Virus record (IMG/VR): IMGVR_UViG_3300044993_000760 | Coordinates: 1-28,518 of that record | Source of the DNA: a virus | DNA: 28,518 nucleotides | Strand: one strand, 5' to 3' | Shown here: positions 4,342 to 28,518 of the stretch, piece after piece | How positions within the stretch are numbered: position 1 is the first letter of the stretch | How the letters are laid out: the number at the start of each line of letters is the position of its first letter | The notes under the pieces: model-generated | What the model saw: the letters and a program-made list of their open reading frames with translations, nothing else | Databases searched by the model: none | What the model was told of the DNA's origin: nothing | Made by a program: the position numbers and the translations under genes

Positions 4342-4710
4342 ATGTACGGCCCCTATGCTCAGCCCCGCGGGCCTCTCGCCGCCCGCCTCCGTCAACGCAA
4401 AGCCCAACTGCTCGCCCGCTTTCCCATCCCCGGCGATCTGTTGCCCGGTTCGCTGTCGGTCAGCAATCCCCGCTGCGGCAAACCGGGCTGCCATTGCGCC
4501 AAGCCCAACGATCCGGGCCACCCCACCTGGACCCTGACCTACATGGTCGAAGGCAAAAAACGCACCATGCACGTCGCCAAGGACTGGGTCGACGATGTTG
4601 AAGCCCGCGTCAAGGCGGGCCGCGAGTTCCTCGACGCCGTCCGCGAGATCCTGGCCGCCAACGCCCAGTTGCTGGATCTCGCGCGAAAACAGCGGCTGCT
4701 CAAGCCGTGA
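4342..4710 (+). CDS. IS-associated accessory protein, DUF6788-like
   Basis: A small basic protein of 122 residues (129 if the in-frame ATG at 4321 is used; the promoter at 4305-4332 argues against that). The core is GSLSVSNPRCGKPGCHCAKP, a short Cys-rich motif (C-x4-C-x-C) that could bind a metal, followed by HPTWTLTYMVEGKKRTMHV and a C-terminal helical part. Proteins of this type are regularly found directly upstream of DDE transposases in the same element. Its function is unknown; a DNA-binding or transposition helper role is a guess. Its stop overlaps the GTG start of the transposase (GTGA), so the two are translationally coupled. Confidence 0.75.
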   Translation: MYGPYAQPRGPLAARLRQRKAQLLARFPIPGDLLPGSLSVSNPRCGKPGCHCAKPNDPGHPTWTLTYMVEGKKRTMHVAKDWVDDVEARVKAGREFLDAVREILAANAQLLDLARKQRLLKP

Positions 4711-5900
4711 GTGCGGCGAGCCCTCGCAAGCTCTGGAAGTACGCCGCCGAGCGGTTGCGCCTGAAAGACCATTTGCTCGCGCCAGGCGACGGCCGCCCGC
4801 AGGGCGGCATCGCCGCGCGAGACCTGTACTGGTCGATGCTCGTCGGCCAGATCCTGCGCGTGGAGAGCTATCACGGAGTCGAGCACCTGGTGGCGGCAAG
4901 CCCGCATGGCGCGCTGCATGTCGGGGCCAGATTCAGCGACGATTCGCTGGCCTACTTCACCGAACGGCTCGATGCCAGCTGCACGCGCCTGGCCGCCGTG
5001 GAAGCCATCCGGCGCACCAAACGCAACAAGGCCTTCGACGGGACGGCGCACATCGGCTTGGCCATCGACGGCACCACGGGCGGACGCTGCCAGGCCGAGG
5101 GCTGCCCGTTGTGCCGGCCCTATCGCAATCAAGACAAAGAGATCGTCGGCTACCGCCATCATTGGGCGATGATCAGCGTCGTCGGCTGCGGCTTGTCGTT
5201 GCCCTTTGATGTCGAGCCCTACGGGCCGGGCGACAGCGAGTACGCCGCCGGCCAGCGCTTGCTCAAGCGCGCCGTCGCCAACCTCGGTCCACGTTTTGCC
5301 GACTATGTGGTCGTCGACGGCGGATTTGCCACCGCCCCGTTTCTGAATACCGCCACCCAAGCCGGCCTCAAGGTGGTCGCCCGGCTGAAGGGCAATCTCC
5401 CCGAACTGTTCGCCGCAGCCCAGAAACGCTTCCGCTCCCAGCCGCCCCACCACCGCTTCCGCGACGGCAAGGACCGCATCGAGATCTGGGACGCCGAAGA
5501 CTTCGACCCTTGGGAGAGCCTGACGTGGGAGACGGTCCGCGTCATCCGCTATCGCCAGATCAAACCCGACGGCGAGACCGTCGAAGCCTACTGGCTCACC
5601 AACTTCAGCCGCCGCCGCGTCTCCAGCAAGAGCCTCTACTTCATGGCCAAAAGCCGTTGGGAAGTTGAGAATCAGGGCTTCAACGACGCCAAGAACCGCC
5701 ACGGCATGGAGCATATCTGTCATCACCACGCCAACAGCCTGCTGCTGCAATGGCTCATCACCGCGTTGGCGCTCACCATCGAGCGCCTCTATCGGCTCCG
5801 CTATCTTCATCGCGGCAATCACCCGCCGCTTACCTCAATCCAATTCGCCCGCCTGCTGTGGATCAGCCTCGGCAAAGCGTGGCGGTCCGACACAAGCTGA
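4707..5900 (+). CDS. DDE transposase of the insertion sequence
   Basis: A 397-residue enzyme that excises and inserts the element using an RNase H-like DDE catalytic domain. Candidate acidic residues are the Asp in GLAIDGTTGG (about residue 120), the Asp in YVVVDGGFAT (about 205) and the Glu in SRWEVENQGFND (about 320); the last motif, with R-W-x-x-E and a following Asn/Asp-rich turn, is characteristic of IS4-like transposases. A Cys-rich insert (GRCQAEGCPLCRP) follows the first Asp. The start is GTG 4707, overlapping the upstream stop. The frame is complete. A 427-codon open frame antisense to it is a shadow caused by GC-rich codon use. Confidence 0.88.
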   Translation: MSAASPRKLWKYAAERLRLKDHLLAPGDGRPQGGIAARDLYWSMLVGQILRVESYHGVEHLVAASPHGALHVGARFSDDSLAYFTERLDASCTRLAAVEAIRRTKRNKAFDGTAHIGLAIDGTTGGRCQAEGCPLCRPYRNQDKEIVGYRHHWAMISVVGCGLSLPFDVEPYGPGDSEYAAGQRLLKRAVANLGPRFADYVVVDGGFATAPFLNTATQAGLKVVARLKGNLPELFAAAQKRFRSQPPHHRFRDGKDRIEIWDAEDFDPWESLTWETVRVIRYRQIKPDGETVEAYWLTNFSRRRVSSKSLYFMAKSRWEVENQGFNDAKNRHGMEHICHHHANSLLLQWLITALALTIERLYRLRYLHRGNHPPLTSIQFARLLWISLGKAWRSDTS

Positions 5901-6762: not shown

Positions 6763-6998
6763 TGCTTGCCCTCCACTATGTCAACCAAGGCCACGAATCG
6801 CCGGATGTAAACCGGTTTGATCGGACGACCGCTGGGAACCGTGAGCAAACCCGCCGCGGGGTGGCGGAATACAACGTGGCTCGTACCGTGCTGACGATAG
6901 TCGATGGAAAATCTGTCCGCCACCACTTTCAGATCTTCGATCCGCCAGTCCCGCGGGTTGGTCCGCATGCGCTGAAGGATCTTGGCGACATTGCCCAC
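6759..6998 (-). CDS. hicA: HicA-like mRNA interferase toxin
   Basis: A 79-residue toxin of the HicA type, which inactivates translation by cleaving mRNA. The conserved features are NPRDWRIEDLKVVADRF, then the double-stranded-RNA-binding-like strand with the catalytic-type His in HGTSHVVFRHP (His41), followed by LTVPSGRPIKPVYIRRFV. It starts at GTG 6998; the next in-frame ATG would remove ten residues that related proteins possess. A promoter with an embedded inverted repeat lies at 7005-7033, so the transcript may begin at or very near the start codon. Toxin first, antitoxin second is the usual hicAB order. Confidence 0.88.
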   Translation of the reverse strand: MGNVAKILQRMRTNPRDWRIEDLKVVADRFSIDYRQHGTSHVVFRHPAAGLLTVPSGRPIKPVYIRRFVALVDIVEGKQ

Positions 6999-7004
6999 AA
7001 CTGA

Positions 7005-7033
7005 ATGGTACCACGAGCGGTACCACTAAACAA
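7005..7033 (-). promoter_or_regulatory. Promoter and operator-like palindrome of hicAB
   Basis: On the minus strand TTGTTT (7028-7033) and TACCAT (7005-7010) stand 17 bases apart. The inverted repeat TGGTACC (7006-7012) and GGTACCA (7019-7025) overlaps the -10 box and the spacer, where a HicB repressor would be expected to bind. The same bases also form a direct repeat of GGTACCAC with a 12-base period. Confidence 0.5.
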
Positions 7034-7050
7034 GACCACTCGTCCTGATC

Positions 7051-10000
7051 ATGGCCGATAACAGGCTCGAACTCGTTGTTGAAGTCGACACCAACCGGGC
7101 CAACGCGTCCATCAAGAGCGTCAACGCGAGCCTTTCCAGCATGGAGGCCTCGGCGGTGAAGACTGCCCGAGGCGCGGCGCAAGGAATCGATGGCATGACC
7201 GCCGCCATGGTGAAGGGCGCCACCGCAGGGAACCTGCTCGCTGACGCGATCAAGAGTGCGCTCGCCTGGGCCAAGGAGTTCACCTTCGGCTCGGTCATGA
7301 TGGCCGCCGAGAATGCCAAAGCCGAGGGCTCGCTCAAGGCGCTGGCCAACGCCCACGGCGTGGGTGCGGCTGCGGCTGCGAGGCAGGTGGCGGCGATCGA
7401 AGAGATCGGCTTTGAATACACCGAAGCCGCGCACGCCGTGCAGCGGCTGATCGTGGCCGATCTGGAACTATCGAAGGCCCAAGGCCTGGCGAAACTCGCC
7501 AAAGACGCGGCGGCGGTCCAGAACATCGCCGCCGGCGAGGCCCTCGAATCCATCGTCATGGCCATCGAATCGGGCGCCTCGCGGGGGTTGCGCACCCTGG
7601 GGTTGTTCGTCGACTTCCAGAAGGAATCGCAGATCGCCGAGCTTCAACTCGGGCGCGCCCTGACCGAAACCGAGGAGAAGCAGCTCCGCTATAACGCGGT
7701 CATCCGCGAAGGCGCGAAGATCCAGGGCGCCCATGCGGCGGCTTCGCAGACGGTCGAGGGGCAACTGGGCGCGCTGCGGCGGGAGTTCAACAACCTGCGC
7801 GAAGACATCGGAGCCAAGTTCCAGGATGATTTCAAGGCGCTGATCGGCAACCTGCGCGGCTTGGTCGGCTGGCTCCGGGACAATACCGACCTGCTCAAGA
7901 AGTTCGGCGAGGTGGCGCTGTGGGTCTCGGGCATTCTTGCCACCTACGCATTGGCCGACAAGATCATGGCTCTGGCGAAGTCCATCGCCGCGCTCCAGCT
8001 CGCCAGCATCAACCCTTACGCCCTGCTCGCGGTGGGAGTCGTGGGCGCGGGCTTTGCCATCTACTCGCAGTGGAAGGACACCCAGGATCAGCTCCAGGCC
8101 CGTTTCGAGGAGATGCAACGCAGGGCGCTGCGCGAGGACCTGCTGAGCGGCAAGACCAGCGTGGACGCGCTGCGCCAGCAGGGCATGACCGATGATCAGA
8201 TCCGTGGCTTACTTGGCGAAAAGCGCTGGCTGCCCGGCGAGTGGGAGCCGCCCACCTACGAGGGTCCTAGACTCCACATCAAGACAACTCAGGAGCCGGA
8301 CCTCGAAGCACTGAAGCGGGCGGCAGAGATCCGAAAGCGCCAGTTGGAGGTGGAGCGAGAGAGCGCACGGGCGCTTGAAGAAGCGCGCCGGCGCGGGCTG
8401 ACGGGATTCGCACGGGACGTGGCCGAGGTGCAGGAGCAGATCCACAAGTGGACCACGTTCGTGGACGAGCGCGGCGATGAGCAGCGGATCGCTCTCACCC
8501 GCAAGGCCTGGGAAAACGTCATCGGCGAGCTTCGCGAGCGCCTGGCCAACTGGCAAAAGGAGGTCCAGGAAACCAACCGTAAGAACCTCGCCGAGTATCT
8601 GGCCGCAGAAGAAGAAGCCGCGCGCCGCCGGATGGAGGTCGAGTCGCGTCTGTTCAGCCAGCGGCTTGCCTACAACGAGGAGATTGCGAAGCGAAACCTG
8701 GATCAGCTGGAGCAGATGCTCGGGATCGAAGAGCAACGCGCCGGGATCGCGCGCGAGGCCCAATTGCGGGCGCTCGACGCCACGAATGCGCAGACGCTCG
8801 AGCAGAAGGTCGCATTCGAACAGCGCAAGGCTGCGATTGAGATCGAGCACATCACCCGGGTTCATGAGATCCGCATGCGGCTGTTCGATCTGGAAACCTC
8901 TCGAATGGTCATTGAGGAAGAGGCGCAGCTCAAGCGGCTCGGCTACCGGGCCGACGAAATCCAGGCGCGGATGGCCGAACTCACCGCGCAGCGGGATGAG
9001 ATCCGGCGGTTCCAGCGGGAGGCCACCGACGCCGCGATCCAGGGCGCGCGCGAGAATGCGGCGATCCGCCAGGCGCAGTTGGTGAGGGAACACAACCAGC
9101 GGATCTTCGATTCCTTCAAGCGGCAGGCCGAGGGTGTCTTCGACGCGCTGCTCACCAAGTCGCAGTCCATCTGGTCGGCCATCGGAAACTCACTGAAAAC
9201 GGCTTTGCTGACCGCCATCAAGGACGTGGTCAGCTCGCGCGTCGCCGCAATGCTCATGCAGTTATTCACCGGCACGCGGGTGTCGCTGGCCGGTGGAGGT
9301 TCATCCGCCGGCGGTACGCTCGGCTGGATTGGCGGACTGCTCGGCGTCGGCGCAGCGCCGGTCTTCGGAGGAGGCAGTGGTGGCGGTCCCATTCCCGGCG
9401 GTGCGGCCGGAGGCTTGGGTACGCCTCCCTTCATTCCGTCCGGCAAGGGCGGCGGATGGGCTGGAGCACTCGGCGGATGGAAGGACTTCCTCGGCTTCGG
9501 CGGCGGCGTCCAGTACGCGCCCGGCAAAGCCGTGACCTGGGAAGCGGCGACCATGGGCCAGAAGCAATCGGCGCTTGGACGGTCCAATGCCGCCCTGCTG
9601 GGTGGCGCGACGCTGGCCCTGATGGGCCTCCAGCGCGGCGGCGTCTCCGGCCTCGCGATGACCACCGCCGGTGGCGCAATGATCGGCTTCAAGTATGGCG
9701 GTCCTCTCGGCGCGGCCATCGGCGCCGGTGTCGGCGCGGTCGCCGGGCTGGTGCGGCTGTTCGTCAAAGGCGCGCAAGAGAAGGCTCGCGAGAAGATCAA
9801 GGCCACCTACGGGGTCGACATCCGCGACAAGGGCGTGCTCAAGCAGATCGTCGACATCGCCAAGCAAGGTTTCGGCGGCAATCTGGAGGCGGCCATCGGC
9901 AGCCAGCAGATCCGCGATCTGGTTGAGTTGTACGCCCTGTCGACGGGTCAGAGCACTTCCGGACTCCCGGCCACCGCGCGCCCGGTGTCGTTGCTCCAGC

Positions 10001-10263
10001 ACGGCCGGAGTCTCTTCCAGTCGAGTTCCGGCGGCCTGACGCTGGACCGTATCGGTGCCGGTGCGCCCTCGTCCGCGGCGGGACCCACGGTGATCAACAT
10101 CACCGTGCCGGGTGCGAAGGAGTTCTTCGAGAAGGAAACGGTCCGCGTGGTGGTCGAGAATCCGCGAGCGGTGCAATCGGCGGCGATGACCGCGACCAAA
10201 GCCAGCGCTGGCCGCCGGGAGATGACCGGGCTGCAACTGAGTCCAGGGCTGATCCTGTCGTAG
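7051..10263 (+). CDS. Tail tape measure protein
   Basis: A 1070-residue protein that sets tail length by spanning the tail lumen and is ejected ahead of DNA. The N-terminal 280 residues are Ala-rich and helical. About residues 288-340 hold hydrophobic stretches (VALWVSGILATYAL, then INPYALLAVGVVGAGFAIYS). Residues about 415-690 are strongly charged and coiled-coil-like (many Glu, Arg and Gln). A Gly-rich segment lies around 747-805, followed by another Gly/Ala-rich hydrophobic region. It is the largest gene of the middle tail block and follows the chaperone in order. There is no clear ribosome binding site before ATG 7051; the upstream region is occupied by the hicAB promoter, so translation initiation may have been altered by the insertion. 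Confidence 0.9.
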   Translation: MADNRLELVVEVDTNRANASIKSVNASLSSMEASAVKTARGAAQGIDGMTAAMVKGATAGNLLADAIKSALAWAKEFTFGSVMMAAENAKAEGSLKALANAHGVGAAAAARQVAAIEEIGFEYTEAAHAVQRLIVADLELSKAQGLAKLAKDAAAVQNIAAGEALESIVMAIESGASRGLRTLGLFVDFQKESQIAELQLGRALTETEEKQLRYNAVIREGAKIQGAHAAASQTVEGQLGALRREFNNLREDIGAKFQDDFKALIGNLRGLVGWLRDNTDLLKKFGEVALWVSGILATYALADKIMALAKSIAALQLASINPYALLAVGVVGAGFAIYSQWKDTQDQLQARFEEMQRRALREDLLSGKTSVDALRQQGMTDDQIRGLLGEKRWLPGEWEPPTYEGPRLHIKTTQEPDLEALKRAAEIRKRQLEVERESARALEEARRRGLTGFARDVAEVQEQIHKWTTFVDERGDEQRIALTRKAWENVIGELRERLANWQKEVQETNRKNLAEYLAAEEEAARRRMEVESRLFSQRLAYNEEIAKRNLDQLEQMLGIEEQRAGIAREAQLRALDATNAQTLEQKVAFEQRKAAIEIEHITRVHEIRMRLFDLETSRMVIEEEAQLKRLGYRADEIQARMAELTAQRDEIRRFQREATDAAIQGARENAAIRQAQLVREHNQRIFDSFKRQAEGVFDALLTKSQSIWSAIGNSLKTALLTAIKDVVSSRVAAMLMQLFTGTRVSLAGGGSSAGGTLGWIGGLLGVGAAPVFGGGSGGGPIPGGAAGGLGTPPFIPSGKGGGWAGALGGWKDFLGFGGGVQYAPGKAVTWEAATMGQKQSALGRSNAALLGGATLALMGLQRGGVSGLAMTTAGGAMIGFKYGGPLGAAIGAGVGAVAGLVRLFVKGAQEKAREKIKATYGVDIRDKGVLKQIVDIAKQGFGGNLEAAIGSQQIRDLVELYALSTGQSTSGLPATARPVSLLQHGRSLFQSSSGGLTLDRIGAGAPSSAAGPTVINITVPGAKEFFEKETVRVVVENPRAVQSAAMTATKASAGRREMTGLQLSPGLILS

Positions 10264-10266
10264 GAC

Positions 10267-10575
10267 TCAAGCAGCGTTGCGTGGCAGGACTTCGCGCTCG
10301 ATTCGGCTGGCCAGGGCATCCTCGGCAGCCGCCAGATCGTACTTTGCCTGAAGGTTGACCCACATTTGGGCCGAGGTGCCGAAGTAGCGAGCTAACCGCA
10401 GCGCCGTGTCGGCGGTGATGCCCCGCTCGCCCTTGAGGATGCCGCCGATCCGGTTCGCGGGCACGCGCAGCGCCGTGGCGAGGGCGTTCGCGGTCAGACC
10501 AGCTTCCTTTAGCAGGTCCTGGAGCACCTCACCGGGATGGATGGGTGGCAAGCGCTTCGGCTGTTTGGTTGCCAT
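10267..10575 (-). CDS. higA: HigA-family antitoxin
   Basis: A 102-residue XRE-family antitoxin. It begins MATKQPKRLPPIHPGEVLQD, the typical 'P.hPGe.L...l' lead of HigA, followed by the helix-turn-helix LTANALATALRVPANRIGGI and GERGITADTALRLARYFGTS, and a C-terminal helix with QMWVNLQAKYDL. The start is ATG 10575, preceded by the strong AAAGGAGG at 10583-10590 (complement); a longer open frame upstream overlaps the toxin. It lies 14 bases after the toxin stop. It should bind HigB and repress the promoter. Its stop stands 3 bases from the tape measure stop, tail to tail. Confidence 0.92.
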   Translation of the reverse strand: MATKQPKRLPPIHPGEVLQDLLKEAGLTANALATALRVPANRIGGILKGERGITADTALRLARYFGTSAQMWVNLQAKYDLAAAEDALASRIEREVLPRNAA

Positions 10576-16907: not shown

Positions 16908-18089
16908 TTACTTCGTAAGATCACGCCAGTAGACCGCAGGCGTGTAGCGCGGCCAGTACCGACCTTCGGCGTACGGGTCCGCAAAGAGGCCGGCCTCAAT
17001 CAGCATCGCGTTGGCTCGCCCGAACACGTGGTGCCAAACCAGGTTGAAGACCTCGGTGAACGGGACTCCCGCCCGAACCGGAGCAATGCCAGCAAGCTCA
17101 GACTCGATCCTCTTGTAGTCGCTCGCCAGCCAAGAGGTGATGGACTCCCGGCCGATCTTCCGCAAGGTGGCGACCATCTGCCCGTCCTGCTTTGACAGAA
17201 CGGGGAAGTTTACGGCGTGGCCCATCTCCGAGATCCTTACGAAACGGCGTTTAGCCAACTCCGCAAGCATCGGTTCGGCATCAGAAGGCGCAATCCCTGC
17301 AGCCCGGCCCAAGGCGGCAAGATTGGATGTGCCGTCACGCATCGCAAGCAACATGGTTCTCAAAGCAGCAGCTCGCGATTGCCCGGCGGACATGAGAAAG
17401 GCGTCGGGCGCGTGACCATCACTGAAGTAAACCGCGCCGGCATCACCCCGGACGTTCGAGTGACTCTGGCTGAAGGACCGATACGGCTCATTGAGGCGTT
17501 CCTCCGCCCAGGGGATATATCGCCCGTCGGGCCGTGCCACTCCCTTCTCGGAGCGATACCCTCCGGACTTGGTCAGGTTTAGGCCATCCCAGTCCAGAGA
17601 AAAGCAGCCGAGCACAACGAAGGCTACATCCTTCCGGTCCACGCCCGGGACGGAGTACCGTTCCAGCGCCGCCTCGATCTCGGTGCGGCGCGACAGCAAC
17701 GAATCCGCGAGTCGGCGAGCGCTCGCTTCGGCCGCCGCCCGGACCTGACGGACATCTCTGGCTGGAAGAAGGGTAAAGGCAATCTGGTAACGATCCCCTT
17801 GACGACGCACCATACGGAGCAATTCGAGGTCGGTCAGGCTTGGGCCGGACTTGCCCAACAGGCCTTTGAGTTCGTCGGCGCCGATTGGCGCCTTCGCAGC
17901 CGCCAGCAAAGCCCGCTGGACCTCTATGCGTTCAATCACGTTCCAGCATGGACCGCCCTTGCACGAGACCGAATAGAAGACGCCAGAATAATCGAGGATT
18001 CGATCTTCCTGGGACCGGGCAACAGCAACGCCTAGCAACAGCAACACGAGGACATTCCTGGACGTAACTGCCAGATCTCGCGAATCCAC
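16908..18089 (-). CDS. Secreted hypothetical protein, probable cargo
   Basis: A protein of 393 residues if it starts at GTG 18089. This start gives a good signal peptide: a short charged lead (DSRDLAVTSR), the hydrophobic core NVLVLLLLGVAVA, and a probable cleavage near ARSQ. An upstream GTG at 18143 would extend it into the next tail gene and bury the signal. The mature part begins EDRILDYSGVFYSVSCKGGPCW (two Cys, possibly a disulphide), followed by helical segments that look like one or two winged-helix-like units (ADELKGLLGKSGPSLTDLEL; GTSNLAALGRAAGIAPSDAE), and near the C-terminus VFNLVWHHVFGRANAMLIEAG. I do not recognise a family. The winged-helix look conflicts with export, so the fold call is weak. 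Confidence 0.65.
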   Translation of the reverse strand: MDSRDLAVTSRNVLVLLLLGVAVARSQEDRILDYSGVFYSVSCKGGPCWNVIERIEVQRALLAAAKAPIGADELKGLLGKSGPSLTDLELLRMVRRQGDRYQIAFTLLPARDVRQVRAAAEASARRLADSLLSRRTEIEAALERYSVPGVDRKDVAFVVLGCFSLDWDGLNLTKSGGYRSEKGVARPDGRYIPWAEERLNEPYRSFSQSHSNVRGDAGAVYFSDGHAPDAFLMSAGQSRAAALRTMLLAMRDGTSNLAALGRAAGIAPSDAEPMLAELAKRRFVRISEMGHAVNFPVLSKQDGQMVATLRKIGRESITSWLASDYKRIESELAGIAPVRAGVPFTEVFNLVWHHVFGRANAMLIEAGLFADPYAEGRYWPRYTPAVYWRDLTK

Positions 18090-18109
18090 GGCACCTGATT
18101 TTATCAACA

Positions 18110-21100
18110 ATGCTGTCTGAACAGCTCCAACTCTTCGACCCACGCCGCACCATCCAGCTTCAGGGTTTCTCTGGCCGCGCGGCGACCACCACGCTGCACG
18201 ACGCCACCGAGACCGGCTTCCAGATCTCCGGGATCTTCCAAGCGGCCGAGGACTTCGCCAACGTCCAACTCTTGTCGGCCTACGACTACTTCAATCACCT
18301 GCGCGTGAAGCCGCTGCCGGTGACGGATCTCTCCGGGCTGACGCTCCAGTACGACATGGAGATTCTGCCCATCAACGGCGAGGAGGGAAACGTCCGGCCC
18401 GACTGCGTGCGCTACGCCTCGGTCGGGTGGGACAAGCTCACGATCACCACCGGCGCGGGGGACATCTACGAAGTCCCATTGATGCACCATGCGGCGGTCG
18501 TCTCGGGCGACTATGCTCCGGGCAGCTTCGGATTCTCGCTCCACGACCGCGACGTGGACACGCTCGACGGACTGCTGGTCGGCCAGCCAACGCCCGCCCT
18601 CACCGACAAGGCCTACGTATACTTCATGGGCACCCGGTGGTCCTGCTCCTCGGCCGAGGCGGTTGCGTTCTGCAACCTCGAAACGCGGCTCCTCAACAAC
18701 ATCGGCGCACCCAACGTGCCTTCCTGCGAGCAAGCTATCTGGTGGCAGGACGATCCCAGTTTCTGGCACTACCTGCTGGTGAACAACGGGGGCGCGGGCA
18801 TCCAGGAGGCTGGCGCGACCGACGCCGCCGACATCGCCTCCCGACTGGCCTGGATGGTGGGCATTTCGAGCTGGCTGGTGGACTGCTCCTCCTCGGGCAA
18901 CGTCATCACGGTCTCGCTCGAACCCAGCGTGAATGGCCCGGTCGAGGTCTCAACCAACAGCGGCTCCGCGCCCGCCACGCTGAGCCGCTCGGTGCCCGGC
19001 ATCTACACCGCGCAGGTCGCCTCCTCGGCCGAGATCCGTGTGGGCGACTACGTCGGCGTCGACATCGGCAGCGCCAACGACGAGGTCGTCAAGGTCTTGG
19101 CCGTTGGGCCGGGCACGTTCACGGCCTACTTCACCAAGCCACATTACGGGAAGGTCTACAACATCCAGTGCCGCGTGCTGCCACGGGCGCGGCACTTCGG
19201 TCGGGTGCTCAAGAATCGAATGGTGGACGCACCGGCGCCCGATTACGGCGAGCAACCGAGCAGCCTCGCCGCCGAGCAGTTCATCACGACGAACACCTCC
19301 TGCGAACTGAAATTACGGCTTACGGGGCAACTGGGCGCGTATGGGCGCGACGCCAACGGCATGCCCGTGCGCGTCTCGGTCGATGGCGGGAACCAGATCG
19401 TCCGCATCGAGAAGAACGACAACGCGTTCGGCGCGACATCACTCGCCACCGCCGCCGAAGGCGCGGGCAACGATCGCGACTACCGCTTCACGTTCCCCTT
19501 CGCCTCGCTCTCCGGCTACCTGAACGGAGACCGCAACGCCCTTGTGCCCGTTCCGGCCATCGACATCGTGAAGGTCCACCTTACCTTTGCGCCGCGCTTC
19601 GAGGACGTCGAGGCAGGCCTGCGCGAGGGTGGACGGATCAAGGAAGGTGTTGCAGCGTCGCCACCTGGAACCGAAGAGGAGTGGCGCCTCACAGACGCCG
19701 ACCAGATGCTCGCTGGCCGCAAGTACTACGTCGGCACGCCGGATGTCGAAGAACGCGTCGCCTGTCTCGCCAACTTGGGCCTCGTGAAGCCCGATCCCGA
19801 CGCCCCGGTCACCTGGTACTACCGCATGCTGGTGCGCCGCGGCGAGGACTCTTCAGTGCCGCAGCCCTGGCCACCAGGCACCCGTGTGCAGCGCATCTCC
19901 ACGATCACCGGCACCCGCTCCGACATCGAGTGGCAGGTGCGGATCTCGAACATCACGGTCACCGGCGACCGGACGCTCAAGGTCGGCGGCGATGCGCCGC
20001 GCATCGAAGAATCCGATGGCCGCTGCCGGTTCGAGGGTTTCTGGGAGAACTACGCCTACGGCGCTGGCTGGCCCACGCAGTGGTGGTCGCTTGGCCACGC
20101 CAAACGCTGCGCGCCCACCGACGCCCAGGATCACCGGGCCGTCACAATCCGCTACTCCTACCCGCGCGAGCACGATCTCTACCTCGGCACCTGGCTCGGG
20201 CGAGATGCGGGCCGGATCGAAGTCACGATCGACGGCGGCGCGCCTGTCGTCCGCGATCTGTATCTCAACGACTACAACGGCCTCGCGGCGATGAAGAAAC
20301 TCGCCGCCGCACTGCCAGGCGGGACGCACACGGTCGAGATCCGCGCGCTCTTTGACAAGCACCCGTCGAGCAACGGCTATTACTTCTACTTCGACTACCT
20401 CTGGCCCCTGGAACCGCAAGACCCTCCGGATCCTCCTCAGGTCTACCCTGACGTCTCCGCGGCAATCGACTTCGACACCGACCACGGCTACAAGAAGCCG
20501 CCCGCCTGGCACGTATGGCACTTGAAGCAGCTGGGTTTTCTCGGCCACGCCGACGTCTACATGGGCGTCTTCTGGAACAACAAGCGCCGCCGCATCGAGG
20601 CGACGTACCCGAACTGCACCGTGAGCGTCGGCGCCTGGCAGGTGGATCAGCCGCTGTGGATCAACCTGTCCGGCACTACGCTCTACTTCTCGCCCGGCGC
20701 GGGCCTCGCGACCGAGGACATCGCCGCGCACCTTCGCGCGATGATCAACGTCACCTTTCCAGGCGTCTGGTCGACCAGCGACGGCAGCTCGATCCACATC
20801 CGTTCCCGCGCGCCAAGCTACACCTTCACCATCTCGGCCAGTCCGCAATTGAGCATCTCGCAGGGCACACCGTCGCTCGATCAGCCGGGCGCCGAGGGCG
20901 ACTGGGAGATGATCGACACCATCTCGCCCGTGATGACCCACGGCGCGCGGAACTGGATTCGCGACCTAGCCCGCGAGTTCAAACAGGCCGGCATCGACGC
21001 CAGCTTCGCCTTCTCGATGGAGTGCTACCTGCCGCCGATGGCTATGGTTGCGCGCTACTGGGACGGCGAGCCGGTCTTCCTGCCCATCCCGTCCCACCAG

Positions 21101-23900: not shown

Positions 23901-26900
23901 CTACAATTCGGGGCAGTAGTACGACAGAAGAAGCGAGGTCAGTTGCTCGCCGCGTTTGGAAATTCGTTCGATGTCCTCGTCGCTCATCGCCGCGAAATCA
24001 GTGGGATAGCCGCAAACCGCCTCCCTCGAAATCAGGCCGGGCACGCTGAAAGGCAGGAGCCGGTCGTTCTGGCCCAGATACGGAAGGATGAAGCCCTTGA
24101 TTTGGCCAGATGCAACATAGTGATGGAGTCGCTTCATGGCCGCGTCCTGGACCTTCTTGAAGATAACCTCGACGCTGCGGTTGATCCGCGAGTAGAAACC
24201 GTACGGGATATGCCTGTCGTCGAACTGTCCGTGCCCGGCATTGCAGCAGATGATGTACGGCGGAGCGAAGACATGCTCGCTGAAACGTTCGTCCCGCCCC
24301 GGTTCCATGCACGAGATCCCGAGGTTATCGAAGACGCCGCCATCGGTGATCACGACTCGGCGCTTCGTCTTCTCACCTTTTCGCTCAAAGTCGAATTCCT
24401 CATCAAAGGCCGGCAGCAACATCGGGAATGCGGCCGATGCCGCTACTGCGTGTGACAAGCGGGGATTGCCTTGACTCGTACCAACAGCGGAACCACCCAC
24501 GCGCCCCTTTTGATAACGAAACGCATTACCGGTTCGCAGGTCGCAAGCATTGAAAACCACGGGCACATCTCCGCGTGTTGGATCGGACAACCGCAGAGGG
24601 CCGAGCGTACGTGACAGAGCTCGCTCCAAAGCATACGTCCGGCTCTTCCATCGGCGTAAGGGTGGTTCTGCACCCAGGCTGCGGGCGCCGAGCGCCGCGC
24701 CGCCGGCCACCACCGTCGTGACAAGAGTCTCGGCAGCAAGGTCCGAGAAGAGGAGTTCTCTGACGATCTGGCGCTGAAGCCCTTTTCGCAGCAGTTCGAT
24801 GACCGTGGATTCGAATACTTCGAAGGGCTGGTTCAAGTACATGTACAGGGCAGCGATCACGCTACCACCAGAGACAGCTGAGACGACGTCCAACTGCTCC
24901 AGGACCCCTCGGTCATGGAGAGCCCGCAAGCAGCCGAGGTGGAAGGCAATTGCCCGAGAGCCACCTCCCGACAATGCGAGGCCTACGCCGTGCCGACTCG
25001 CCGGTTTTCGATTGACGATCGTGAACCGCGGCGCGAGTGTAGGCTCATACTCGCTTTGCAGAAAGTCAGACCGGGCAAACACGTACGCACCCACCTGGGG
25101 ATCACCGTCGGTGAGACCTACAATGACAAGAAGGGTCTTTGTGGGCGAAAGACTGCTTTCAGTCAGAATCTGAGCAACCCCGAGCACGTCCCGCACGCTC
25201 GGCAGCGGCCGGCACATTGGGTGGGTGTGCCAAGTCCCCAGGCATGAAACGCTCCCTCTGAATATTCGCTTCCGCTCAGCGTAACCCGCCCCTGCTCCTT
25301 CCGTGCCGCATACGAAACCATCGGCTGATGCCCGGCTATCTGGCGGCGGTCCCGACGCCTCGGTGATCCACATGGTTTTCAGAAGGTCGTCGCGTCTACC
25401 GTAAAGGAGACCACCAGTTTCGACTTGCTCACCCAGCTGACGGCGGTTGCGTGAGATGGCCGATTGGATATCCAGCCACGCACCGCGCGAAACTCGGATC
25501 TGATAGCCCTTGTGGCAGTCCGCGCAGATGAAGTCCGGCTGCCAGGCGAACGAGACGCGGCCCAGTTCACCCAACTCTTGCGAAAGGCTAGCCGGTTGGA
25601 CGATCAGATAACTCGCTGCCGATCCCGTGGGCCGAGCCAACTCGGCTGCCGCAAGGTTCAGCAGGGCACCGGACAGCGCGGCGACGTCCGCGCCAGAACC
25701 AACAAATGTTGGGTCAGAACACCCCGGTTCTGGCTGAAACAGGTCGGTACGGTCGTTTTCGGGATAGAACTCGTTAGCGTAAGCGGTCAGCCAAGGCCGT
25801 TTGCAGACTTCCAGCTTTGTTCGGAAATAGACATCCGCCGGCCCCCCTGTATGTGTGGAATGTGCGACCACGACAAGCCCCCGGTCCGCCAGTCGCGAAA
25901 TGACCATCGATACCATCGCGGGCCTCGCTCCAGCCTCAGCTTGGCGAACGGCTTCCAAACGGCTCTGAACGATGGCAGAGGCAGTGCAATCGATGAGGAG
26001 GTCACAACCTTCGGCCCAGTCCCCCGCCTGTCTGAGGTTGGTCGAGAGATCCACGGCTGCCGCCACGACATCGAGATCAGGCCGCAGAGATTTCAGCCGA
26101 TCGGCGAGCGCGTGCGCCTTTGAGCGTCCGATGTCGGCATCCGTGTAAAGTTGCCGAACAAGAATGCCTGGCTTCACGATCCCGTAGTCTTTGAGGACGA
26201 GACGTTTCACACCGGACTGGGCCAGGAACAGGGCGACGTGCGAGCCGAGGGCGCCGCAGCCAAGAAGTAGCACCTCTCGGTCGCGGAAGTAAGCGGCTGC
26301 ACTTTCGTGGTCGCGCCGAACCGTTATCTCTGGCCGTGCTTCCAACACATGGCACCAATGAACCTTGGCCGTTAAAGCCCAGTTGGCTACCCGTTTGTAA
26401 GCTTCGTCAGCGAGTTGCATGACCAACTCGTTCTTGGTGAAACCCTTAAGAAGCGAAACGCTCAAGTCTTGCGCTTGGTCGGGCTCGATGTACCAGACCG
26501 CCAAGTGCTGCCGCAGTTGCCCGCCCCTGATGCCCCTCATCGGAGTGCCGATGACGGCATACAGAGGTGAATTCTCGTCGTTCATAAGTGCAGCAGTCTG
26601 AAGGCGGAAGACGAGTTCGCGCAGATCCGCGCCCCGATTCATGATCTGACCCAAGAGCTCAGCAAGTTGCGATGGGAATTCCCATGGCATCCACGCAGAC
26701 AAGAGCAGCGCGGGCGCGAGTGCGAGATCGTCACGCTTCTCAGGCGCGACAGTCCAGTCAACAACTTCGACGCGTCTGCCGACGACCCGAACGTGCGCGT
26801 ACCCCACCCAGGCGGAGCCGCCAATCTCTGGCGCATTGGCGCGTATGACCACCGGCGTCTTGGCAGTTCCGTCCGTGTAGGCGACTGGCGGGTGGAGTGG

Positions 26901-27314
26901 GCCGCCTTCGGGATCAAGCTGGTTCAGCGCAGCCCTGCGGAGCCAAAGATGGAGTCGTTCGATGAACCCGAACATCCCGTCATCCACACTCCACTCCGTC
27001 TGGGGAGCCTGATACAGACAGAGGTGACGTGACCACTGGACATGCGGCGCTCCGGCAAACCTCTTGTGTGGCACCCATACTTCCGGCTTCTGGTACGGGA
27101 ACTCAGCAGGAACATAGACCTGGAACCGTTCTCGTTCGCGGAAAACCAGCCCGCCAGGTGCATGCGGGAGGTCGCCGCAGTGCAGAGAGATCTCAATCAC
27201 CAACCGGCTTTCCGAGGGCGATAGCTCCCAAACGCCTTCGATGTCGATCGCATAATCGTCGCGCACGACGATCTCTTTGATCTGCTCCAGGGCGAGTCTC
27301 TGACCGTCCGTCAT
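23901..27314 (-). CDS. Fusion of E2-like, E1/ThiF-like, JAB peptidase-like and patatin-like domains
   Basis: A single 1137-residue polypeptide, start ATG 27314, 34 bases after the MBL gene. Domain 1, residues 1-130, is E2-like: FQVYVPAEFPYQKPEVWVP, then HVQWSRHLCLY with candidate catalytic Cys99. Residues 130-330 are unassigned. Domain 2, about 330-590, is E1/ThiF-like: nucleotide-binding LLGCGALGSHVALFLAQSG (Gly352-Ser358), helix IGRSKAHALADRLKSL, DLLIDCTAS, and EPGCSDPTF with candidate catalytic Cys532; CADC (597-600) may help bind zinc. Domain 3, about 605-755, is JAB/JAMM: Glu632 in VETGGLLYG and His696-x-His698-x7-Ser706-x2-Asp709. Domain 4, about 775-1137, is patatin-like: oxyanion loop GGGSR at 783-787, nucleophile Ser815 in AVSGGS, and Asp991 in TDGG. 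All catalytic residues appear present. In type II CBASS these parts are Cap2, Cap3 and a CapV-type lipase on separate genes. The role here is inferred to be phage defence. Confidence 0.9.
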   Translation of the reverse strand: MTDGQRLALEQIKEIVVRDDYAIDIEGVWELSPSESRLVIEISLHCGDLPHAPGGLVFRERERFQVYVPAEFPYQKPEVWVPHKRFAGAPHVQWSRHLCLYQAPQTEWSVDDGMFGFIERLHLWLRRAALNQLDPEGGPLHPPVAYTDGTAKTPVVIRANAPEIGGSAWVGYAHVRVVGRRVEVVDWTVAPEKRDDLALAPALLLSAWMPWEFPSQLAELLGQIMNRGADLRELVFRLQTAALMNDENSPLYAVIGTPMRGIRGGQLRQHLAVWYIEPDQAQDLSVSLLKGFTKNELVMQLADEAYKRVANWALTAKVHWCHVLEARPEITVRRDHESAAAYFRDREVLLLGCGALGSHVALFLAQSGVKRLVLKDYGIVKPGILVRQLYTDADIGRSKAHALADRLKSLRPDLDVVAAAVDLSTNLRQAGDWAEGCDLLIDCTASAIVQSRLEAVRQAEAGARPAMVSMVISRLADRGLVVVAHSTHTGGPADVYFRTKLEVCKRPWLTAYANEFYPENDRTDLFQPEPGCSDPTFVGSGADVAALSGALLNLAAAELARPTGSAASYLIVQPASLSQELGELGRVSFAWQPDFICADCHKGYQIRVSRGAWLDIQSAISRNRRQLGEQVETGGLLYGRRDDLLKTMWITEASGPPPDSRASADGFVCGTEGAGAGYAERKRIFRGSVSCLGTWHTHPMCRPLPSVRDVLGVAQILTESSLSPTKTLLVIVGLTDGDPQVGAYVFARSDFLQSEYEPTLAPRFTIVNRKPASRHGVGLALSGGGSRAIAFHLGCLRALHDRGVLEQLDVVSAVSGGSVIAALYMYLNQPFEVFESTVIELLRKGLQRQIVRELLFSDLAAETLVTTVVAGGAALGARSLGAEPPLRRWKSRTYALERALSRTLGPLRLSDPTRGDVPVVFNACDLRTGNAFRYQKGRVGGSAVGTSQGNPRLSHAVAASAAFPMLLPAFDEEFDFERKGEKTKRRVVITDGGVFDNLGISCMEPGRDERFSEHVFAPPYIICCNAGHGQFDDRHIPYGFYSRINRSVEVIFKKVQDAAMKRLHHYVASGQIKGFILPYLGQNDRLLPFSVPGLISREAVCGYPTDFAAMSDEDIERISKRGEQLTSLLLSYYCPEL

Positions 27315-27348: not shown

Positions 27349-28518
27349 TCAATCGCCGAAGCCGACCTGTGACCGAGGCGGTGCGTCGCCACCGCGGGCT
27401 TGCGTGACCGCGGCTCCCAGGCGCGAAGCGGCCTCGGCCTTCTTGGCACCGGAAGAACCGCGATACACAAATCCTTGTGCTGAGACCTCAAGACTGATCG
27501 GCTCCGGCGATGTGGAATTCGGGTGCTCTTGCGTACAGAGGAAATGTCCCGACTCGACGATTTCTTCGTAGCGTTTCCGGGCCTTGAGGTGCGGCGGGTT
27601 CTTGCCTTCCTTGTCGCTGAAGTCAGACTCTGAACTCGCAACGATGTAGGCGCCCGCACGGGCCGACTCTTCAAAATCGTCCATGATGTCGCTCTTGAAG
27701 ATTTCGCCTTTGTCGGGATCGTCCTGCCAGTACATCGCGCTCTTTGAGCAGTGGTGGGGCGTAAGAAGGATGTCCCATTCCAGATACTGACGGCGGTTCT
27801 TCTCCTTGGTCTTGTCGAAGATGCGCCTGAGCGTCGGGTAGCAATGATCGCCGAGGAACAAGCCTTTACCCGTCTGCTTGTCCTTTGTGAGGGCAATGTG
27901 GAGAGCCAGGCTCGTGTCGTTCCGGTCGCCATCGGCGTGATCCTTAAACGGCGCGTGGATGAACGCTTCGAATACGCCGGTCAGGTCCACACCATCCAAG
28001 GCTGTGAGCCATGATCCAGGGTAGGAACGCCAGCGGTCTGGGAAGTTTTTGTAGTCTTCCTCCTTGAAAATGTCGTCGTGGCCGATCACGCGGACGCGGT
28101 CTCCGGATGCGACCACTCCGTGATTCTTGATCGTGATCTTCCGCCGCCGTTCAACCTCCGCTTTGAACGCTCTGGCATCGTCGCAAAGATCCTTCTTGTA
28201 CTCGGTGAACACCCGCGGCGTGTGCCAGATCTCGCCAATCGTAACCCGCGAAAGCAACTCGGCGAAGCCCTGGATATGGTCCTTGTCGGGATGCGTCAAG
28301 ACAAAGGCCGACAGATAGGGTCTCCGGTCACGCCGGGGCAACAGACGGACCAGTTCATCGACGATGGACGTGTGCGGGTCATCCTCGTCGTCACAGCATT
28401 CAAGCTCATGCAGGTCGAGTTGGATGATGATTCCCTTCCGATCAACAACGATCGTTGAACTGTCTCCGGTACCTACCGGCCAGAAAACAAAACCGCGTTC
28501 GGGTAACTCGAAAGCCAT
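27349..28518 (-). CDS. Metallo-beta-lactamase-fold hydrolase, partner of the E2-E1-JAB-patatin fusion
   Basis: A 389-residue protein whose ATG is at the last base of the window; a longer start outside cannot be excluded. The metal-binding motif is LTHPDKDHIQGF (His76, Asp78, Asp80, His81), the ComEC/Rec2-like variant in which the second His of HxHxDH is Asp. Further ligand candidates are Asp224 in GLFLGDHCY and His255-His256 in LLTPHHCSKS. The N-terminal strand (FVFWPVGTGDSSTIVV) fits the same group. The C-terminal 100 residues are charged and Ser-rich with no clear fold. MBL-fold proteins were noted, as I recall, next to bacterial E2/E1/JAB genes in surveys of prokaryotic ubiquitin-like systems. 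The substrate is unknown; nucleic acid, nucleotide or adduct hydrolysis are possible. Confidence 0.85.
   Translation of the reverse strand: MAFELPERGFVFWPVGTGDSSTIVVDRKGIIIQLDLHELECCDDEDDPHTSIVDELVRLLPRRDRRPYLSAFVLTHPDKDHIQGFAELLSRVTIGEIWHTPRVFTEYKKDLCDDARAFKAEVERRRKITIKNHGVVASGDRVRVIGHDDIFKEEDYKNFPDRWRSYPGSWLTALDGVDLTGVFEAFIHAPFKDHADGDRNDTSLALHIALTKDKQTGKGLFLGDHCYPTLRRIFDKTKEKNRRQYLEWDILLTPHHCSKSAMYWQDDPDKGEIFKSDIMDDFEESARAGAYIVASSESDFSDKEGKNPPHLKARKRYEEIVESGHFLCTQEHPNSTSPEPISLEVSAQGFVYRGSSGAKKAEAASRLGAAVTQARGGDAPPRSQVGFGD

Follow-up and report, generated by a model that had tools for sequence, protein, structure and literature searches.

A patatin-like lipase domain fused to the E2-E1-JAB protein of a 6A-MBL operon on a viral DNA fragment

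Results

A two-gene operon encodes an MBL-fold hydrolase and a four-domain protein

The window, by which we mean the whole stretch of DNA analysed, is a prophage-like IMG/VR record of 28.5 kb whose plus strand carries a head-tail module. An operon of two genes lies at the end of the fragment, convergent to this module and of lower GC content (58–60% against 64–65%). Its first gene encodes an MBL-fold hydrolase, and 34 nt downstream on the same strand is a gene for a protein in which E2, E1, JAB and patatin-like domains follow one another (Table 1). The window's final three bases are the MBL start codon, so a regulator or other gene upstream would lie outside our view.

Table 1. Features of the operon, with positions in the window. 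Residue numbers are those of the encoded protein.
Feature	Position	Strand	Remarks
Four-domain gene, E2 - E1 (ThiF) - JAB - patatin	23901..27314	minus	1137 aa
E2-like domain, residues about 1-160	26835..27314	minus	PF14457 Prok-E2_A; His91/Cys99
E1/ThiF domain, residues about 330-600	25515..26327	minus	PF00899; GxGxxG and Cys532
JAB/JAMM domain, residues about 601-755	25050..25514	minus	PF14464; E632, H696, H698, S706, D709
JAB-patatin linker, about residues 756-776 (~20 aa)	24987..25049	minus	split relatives have their gene boundary here
Patatin-like phospholipase domain, residues about 777-1137	23904..24986	minus	PF01734
MBL-fold hydrolase gene	27349..28518	minus	389 aa; NCBIfam NF058524
VGFG-D at the MBL C-terminus (predicted conjugation tail)	27352..27366	minus	conserved glycine end

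A check of the window's frames showed that the fusion is read from 27314 to 23904, followed by the stop codon at 23903–23901, while the plus strand across the same interval is packed with stops and is not open. The listed open reading frame of 1343 aa is this frame extended upstream, in phase, into the MBL gene; the start used here is supported by the alignment of M1 of the 1137-residue protein with M1 of its relatives.

The earlier note had read four activities out of this single frame, and each of the four domains gave a significant Pfam match: Prok-E2_A at residues 55–157 (E = 2.6e-19), ThiF at 344–452 (E = 1e-20), Prok-JAB at 627–734 (E = 2e-6) and Patatin at 779–1000 (E = 5.5e-19). The PADLOC E1-E2 model spans residues 5–576 (E = 2e-89), the PADLOC JAB model also matches the fusion (E = 3e-17), and the PDB matches of the E1 domain are to ThiF, MoeB and Cap2. 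The catalytic residues named previously are all present at the numbers given and are conserved. H91 and C99 of the E2 domain, G352, G354, G357 and C532 of the E1 domain, and Glu632, His696, His698, Ser706 and Asp709 of the JAB domain are the same in all 22 relatives, and G785, R787, S815, G817, D991 and G993 are conserved in 10 of 10 patatins, covering the GGG(S/x)R loop (here GGGSR), the catalytic Ser in SGGS and the catalytic Asp in DGG. The profile matches and conserved residues rule out a chance open reading frame, and the Prok-E2_A match together with the invariant His91 and Cys99 supports, at the sequence level, an E2 domain in the N-terminal part, the fold of which had been in doubt. 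The C-terminus of the fusion (...CPEL) has no glycine tail. AlphaFold predictions of the fusion and the MBL protein, made from two-row alignments (the window and its fused relative, described below), had mean pLDDT values of 36 and 32 and were too poor for use.

The MBL protein has the metal-site motif THxDxDH (H76, D78, D80, H81) together with D224, H255 and N200. As all of these residues are invariant across 26 rows, the protein probably has hydrolase activity. In a PDB profile search it drew only spurious ankyrin/DARPin matches.

The operon may serve a prophage

It is about an even call whether the operon serves a prophage, by superinfection exclusion, rather than forming a host defence locus. 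Its convergent orientation, its lower GC content and the head-tail module that makes up the remainder of the window all speak for service to a prophage. Against this, no integration site is visible in the window, and no second viral copy of the MBL and fusion pair was found in the viral contig scans or the phage collection; the operon could instead stem from host flank. This question bears on which genome benefits, not on the mechanism.

Two further minus-strand genes, opposite in strand to the tail genes, are candidates for cargo. The first (11765–about 12970; GC also lower, at 56%) encodes a PLD-like protein (PF13091, E = 1e-5, below the cut-off) with weak DrmC-like matches; the second (16908–18143) encodes a protein of 411 aa or shorter with no significant family match and a weak IclR-type HTH. 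An IS4-like transposase is encoded amid the tail genes on the plus strand at 4707–5900 (NCBIfam IS4, E = 9e-10, below the cut-off).

The operon belongs to the 6A-MBL system

Residues 58–731 of the fusion match the NCBIfam model NF058523, 6A-MBL_cap2_3, with 365.7 bits (cut-off 320), and the gene preceding it matches NF058524, 6A-MBL_enzyme, with 296.8 bits (cut-off 220); both system names are those of NCBIfam release 20. Split relatives, described below, also exceed the cut-offs of these models, and the E1-E2 protein from an operon with a CD-NTase fails the cap2_3 model at 122 bits. By these scores the operon is a member of an already named anti-phage system and no new kind of system; the JAB-patatin fusion is the new element. 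Scores for the cap2_3 model are 330–366 bits in the window's clade, near the cut-off, compared with 629–659 bits in other clades, which marks the window's clade as a divergent branch.

An E2-E1-JAB 'triple module' beside a metallo-beta-lactamase was described by Iyer et al. (2006; PMC1779556) as gene neighbourhood row 6a. Our literature search found no paper describing '6A-MBL' or E2-E1-JAB with patatin; since the search was limited in reach, the MBL tail or the patatin may have been described earlier. On the basis of DNA similarity to a single E2-E1-JAB gene copy from E. coli, 6A-MBL is present in 31 of the 5,426 complete genomes of this species. The earlier note mentioned neither the MBL gene upstream, the partner that stays constant across the family, nor the named system to which both genes belong, nor the conserved glycine tail of the MBL protein.

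The JAB and patatin genes are fused in two records and overlap in others

A scan of the genome collection identified one full-length fused relative, in a Phycisphaerae MAG (L002, 8001–11462, 1153 aa). It is 42–45% identical to the window's fusion from end to end and is likewise preceded by an MBL gene (6778–8004). As the window and L002 independently carry the same open four-domain frame, a frameshift, sequencing or assembly artefact is ruled out. Among 294 Planctomycetota genomes scanned, only the one already known matched.

A tblastn search of plasmids showed this set to be encoded by separate genes in Rhizobium, Streptomyces and Rhodococcus, and also in Bradyrhizobium, Ruegeria and Phaeobacter, where the E2-E1 parts are more divergent. 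An overlap of 4–35 nt joins the JAB-containing gene to the patatin gene in Rhizobium, the two Rhodococcus loci, Bradyrhizobium and Ruegeria (L003, L005, L006, L007 and L008), and the fusion therefore unites a gene pair that was already tightly coupled. The patatin of the Rhizobium record is split over two frames and the E2-E1/JAB gene of the Streptomyces record is interrupted; these copies may be broken or mis-sequenced. Trees of the MBL and E2-E1-JAB proteins alike place the window, L002, Rhizobium and Rhodococcus in one well supported clade (the VGFG clade, after its MBL tails), although a distant CBASS Cap2 row also attaches there on a long branch. The Streptomyces and Pseudarthrobacter MBL proteins group in the same MBL clade.

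A differently organised cluster is found on a Mesorhizobium AR10 plasmid (L010, 2255–7161). It encodes a 57-aa protein ending LGGEY, an E2, a second E2-like protein, a ThiF protein, JAB-like and MBL-like proteins and then a patatin close to that of the 6A-MBL operon L007. The 57-aa protein, with its GG tail, may be a small modifier.

The MBL protein ends in a conserved glycine

At their C-terminal ends the MBL proteins have a common architecture, in which the core is followed by a linker of small residues, of widely varying length, and then by a short conserved end. In all 28 MBL proteins/loci this end is a glycine followed by 0–4 residues, the glycine of the window's protein being Gly388. The tails of the window's clade are VGFG-D (window), VGFG-SGE, VGFG-AE, IGFG-AA and VGFG-R, and those of other clades are RAG, RAG-VSNQ, RAG-SPR, RAG-YQGN, GHG, AHG-RK, SHG-SD, PHG-AS, PHG, EHG, TQG and GYG-AEAI. 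After clustering at 60% identity, a glycine lies within the last five residues in 21 of 21 clusters, against 10.3 expected when the last 40 residues are shuffled (20,000 trials, maximum 18 of 21). By the same criterion 7 of the 22 E2-E1-JAB proteins score, as do 40% of the long open frames of the same loci.

Such a tail resembles that of a ubiquitin-like precursor, where the glycine is free or carries a short extension. It also recalls the cyclase of type II CBASS, which Cap2 attaches to targets through its terminal Gly/Ala and Cap3 sets free again (PMC10097602; PMC11153139). The conserved MBL tail could also bind a partner without conjugation.

The third gene and the regulators vary across the family

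The third gene encodes a patatin in the window, in L002–L008 and in L021, L023 and L033. DUF6338 is found as the third gene in L020 and L038, a second MBL gene is present in L024, L025 and L030, and there is no obvious candidate in L027–L029, L031 and L039. In L024, L030, L032 and L035–L037 its place is taken by a small protein that by eye looks hydrophobic. Adjoining the operon are WYL genes (L007, L020, L021, L025, L028, L029, L031, L038 and L039) or HTH/ImmA pairs (L008, L033 and L037). CBASS shows this pattern too: its conjugation core is kept while effectors and regulators change. Since the MBL gene is constant and the third gene variable, we regard the MBL protein as most likely the one handled by the conjugation enzymes, and the patatin as a swappable effector.

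The small hydrophobic-looking proteins are encoded at 8767–9486 (L024), 9823–10515 (L030), 8935–9663 (L032), 9097–9885 (L035), 8960–9598 (L036) and 8729–9520 (L037). They have no Pfam or NCBIfam match (L030 and L032 were not both scanned in each library) and are candidates for new membrane effectors of 6A-MBL.

Discussion

A model for the fused 6A-MBL operon

Two questions about 6A-MBL are which protein the conjugation enzymes attach and by what means the phage is killed or halted, and the MBL tail and the fused patatin bear on both. We favour, with a probability of roughly 0.6, a model in which the two-gene operon conjugates the MBL protein by its flexible tail through E1 and E2, the JAB domain trims or releases it, and the tethered patatin is a swappable effector that in the window's lineage has become fused to the machine. 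The JAB domain would first trim the tail to its glycine (VGFG|D in the window), removing the 1–4 extra residues where these are present. The E1 domain would then adenylate the exposed glycine and the E2 domain transfer the MBL protein to a target, from which JAB could also release it. Conjugation or release would control the MBL enzyme, as it does the type II CBASS cyclase. Upon infection some step would activate the tethered patatin, which could sense an MBL product or respond to clustered MBL conjugates, leading to membrane damage and an aborted infection. Alongside this, we regard it as slightly better than an even bet that the conjugated modifier is a folded metallo-hydrolase and not a ubiquitin-like fold, trimmed by JAB and joined by E1/E2, with writer, eraser and effector united, in this lineage, on one polypeptide beside it.

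The invariance of the MBL metal site is also compatible with an enzyme that makes or destroys a small-molecule signal controlling the patatin, conjugation merely tuning the MBL protein and the tail perhaps acting as a docking peptide. CBASS patatins are indeed switched on by nucleotides (PMC10097602), and downstream of conjugation such a scheme overlaps with our model. As an alternative to the model it is unlikely: we saw no nucleotide-binding effector domain, and none of the relatives' operons that we examined has an annotated nucleotidyltransferase gene next to it.

The earlier note's picture of a ubiquitin-like conjugation and deconjugation machine of the defence type joined to a patatin has held, but its proposal that the lipase itself is the target or the switch, through conjugation or cleavage adjoining the patatin domain, is less likely than conjugation of the MBL enzyme, and indeed improbable, because the physical fusion in two independent records and the close JAB/patatin gene overlap in split relatives, which favour it, are set against a patatin that is dispensable in the family (separate in several relatives and elsewhere replaced by unrelated genes), lacks a glycine tail and is joined to JAB by a short linker of about 20 aa.

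Comparison with known systems

The window shares with 6A-MBL an MBL-fold gene adjoining an E2-E1-JAB protein, both above the curated cut-offs, and differs in having a patatin fused behind JAB, where the curated cap2_3 model (665 positions) stops. The comparison with Cap2 and Cap3 drawn previously was apt: like type II CBASS, the operon has an E1-E2 protein, a JAB protein and a patatin effector (Cap2, Cap3 and the CapV patatin) and a partner that ends in a conserved Gly, here a predicted substrate of E1 and E2. Here, however, the partner is an MBL enzyme in the place of the CD-NTase, and one chain stands for three proteins. We rejected membership of CBASS because no CD-NTase gene is present in the window, which ends at the MBL start, and none is annotated beside the relatives' operons examined. 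A separate viral fragment (IMG/VR 3300048834_001206; L016, 5609–9265), which encodes by eye a nucleotidyltransferase-like protein and then E1-type and JAB-type proteins, preceded by an HNH-type protein, looks like a carrier of type II CBASS.

In the ubiquitin-like Bil and Bub systems, mobile defence-like operons encode E1, E2 and JAB enzymes (PMC13373217). The operon described here encodes the same set of enzymes; there was no candidate for a beta-grasp Ubl gene among the scanned genes of the window (Pfam/NCBIfam), which ends at the MBL start. It differs from Bil and Bub in that the candidate modifier is an MBL-fold enzyme. If this is correct, a second kind of enzyme, besides the CBASS cyclases, serves as a ubiquitin-like modifier, and attaching the enzyme itself would therefore be general in bacterial immunity.
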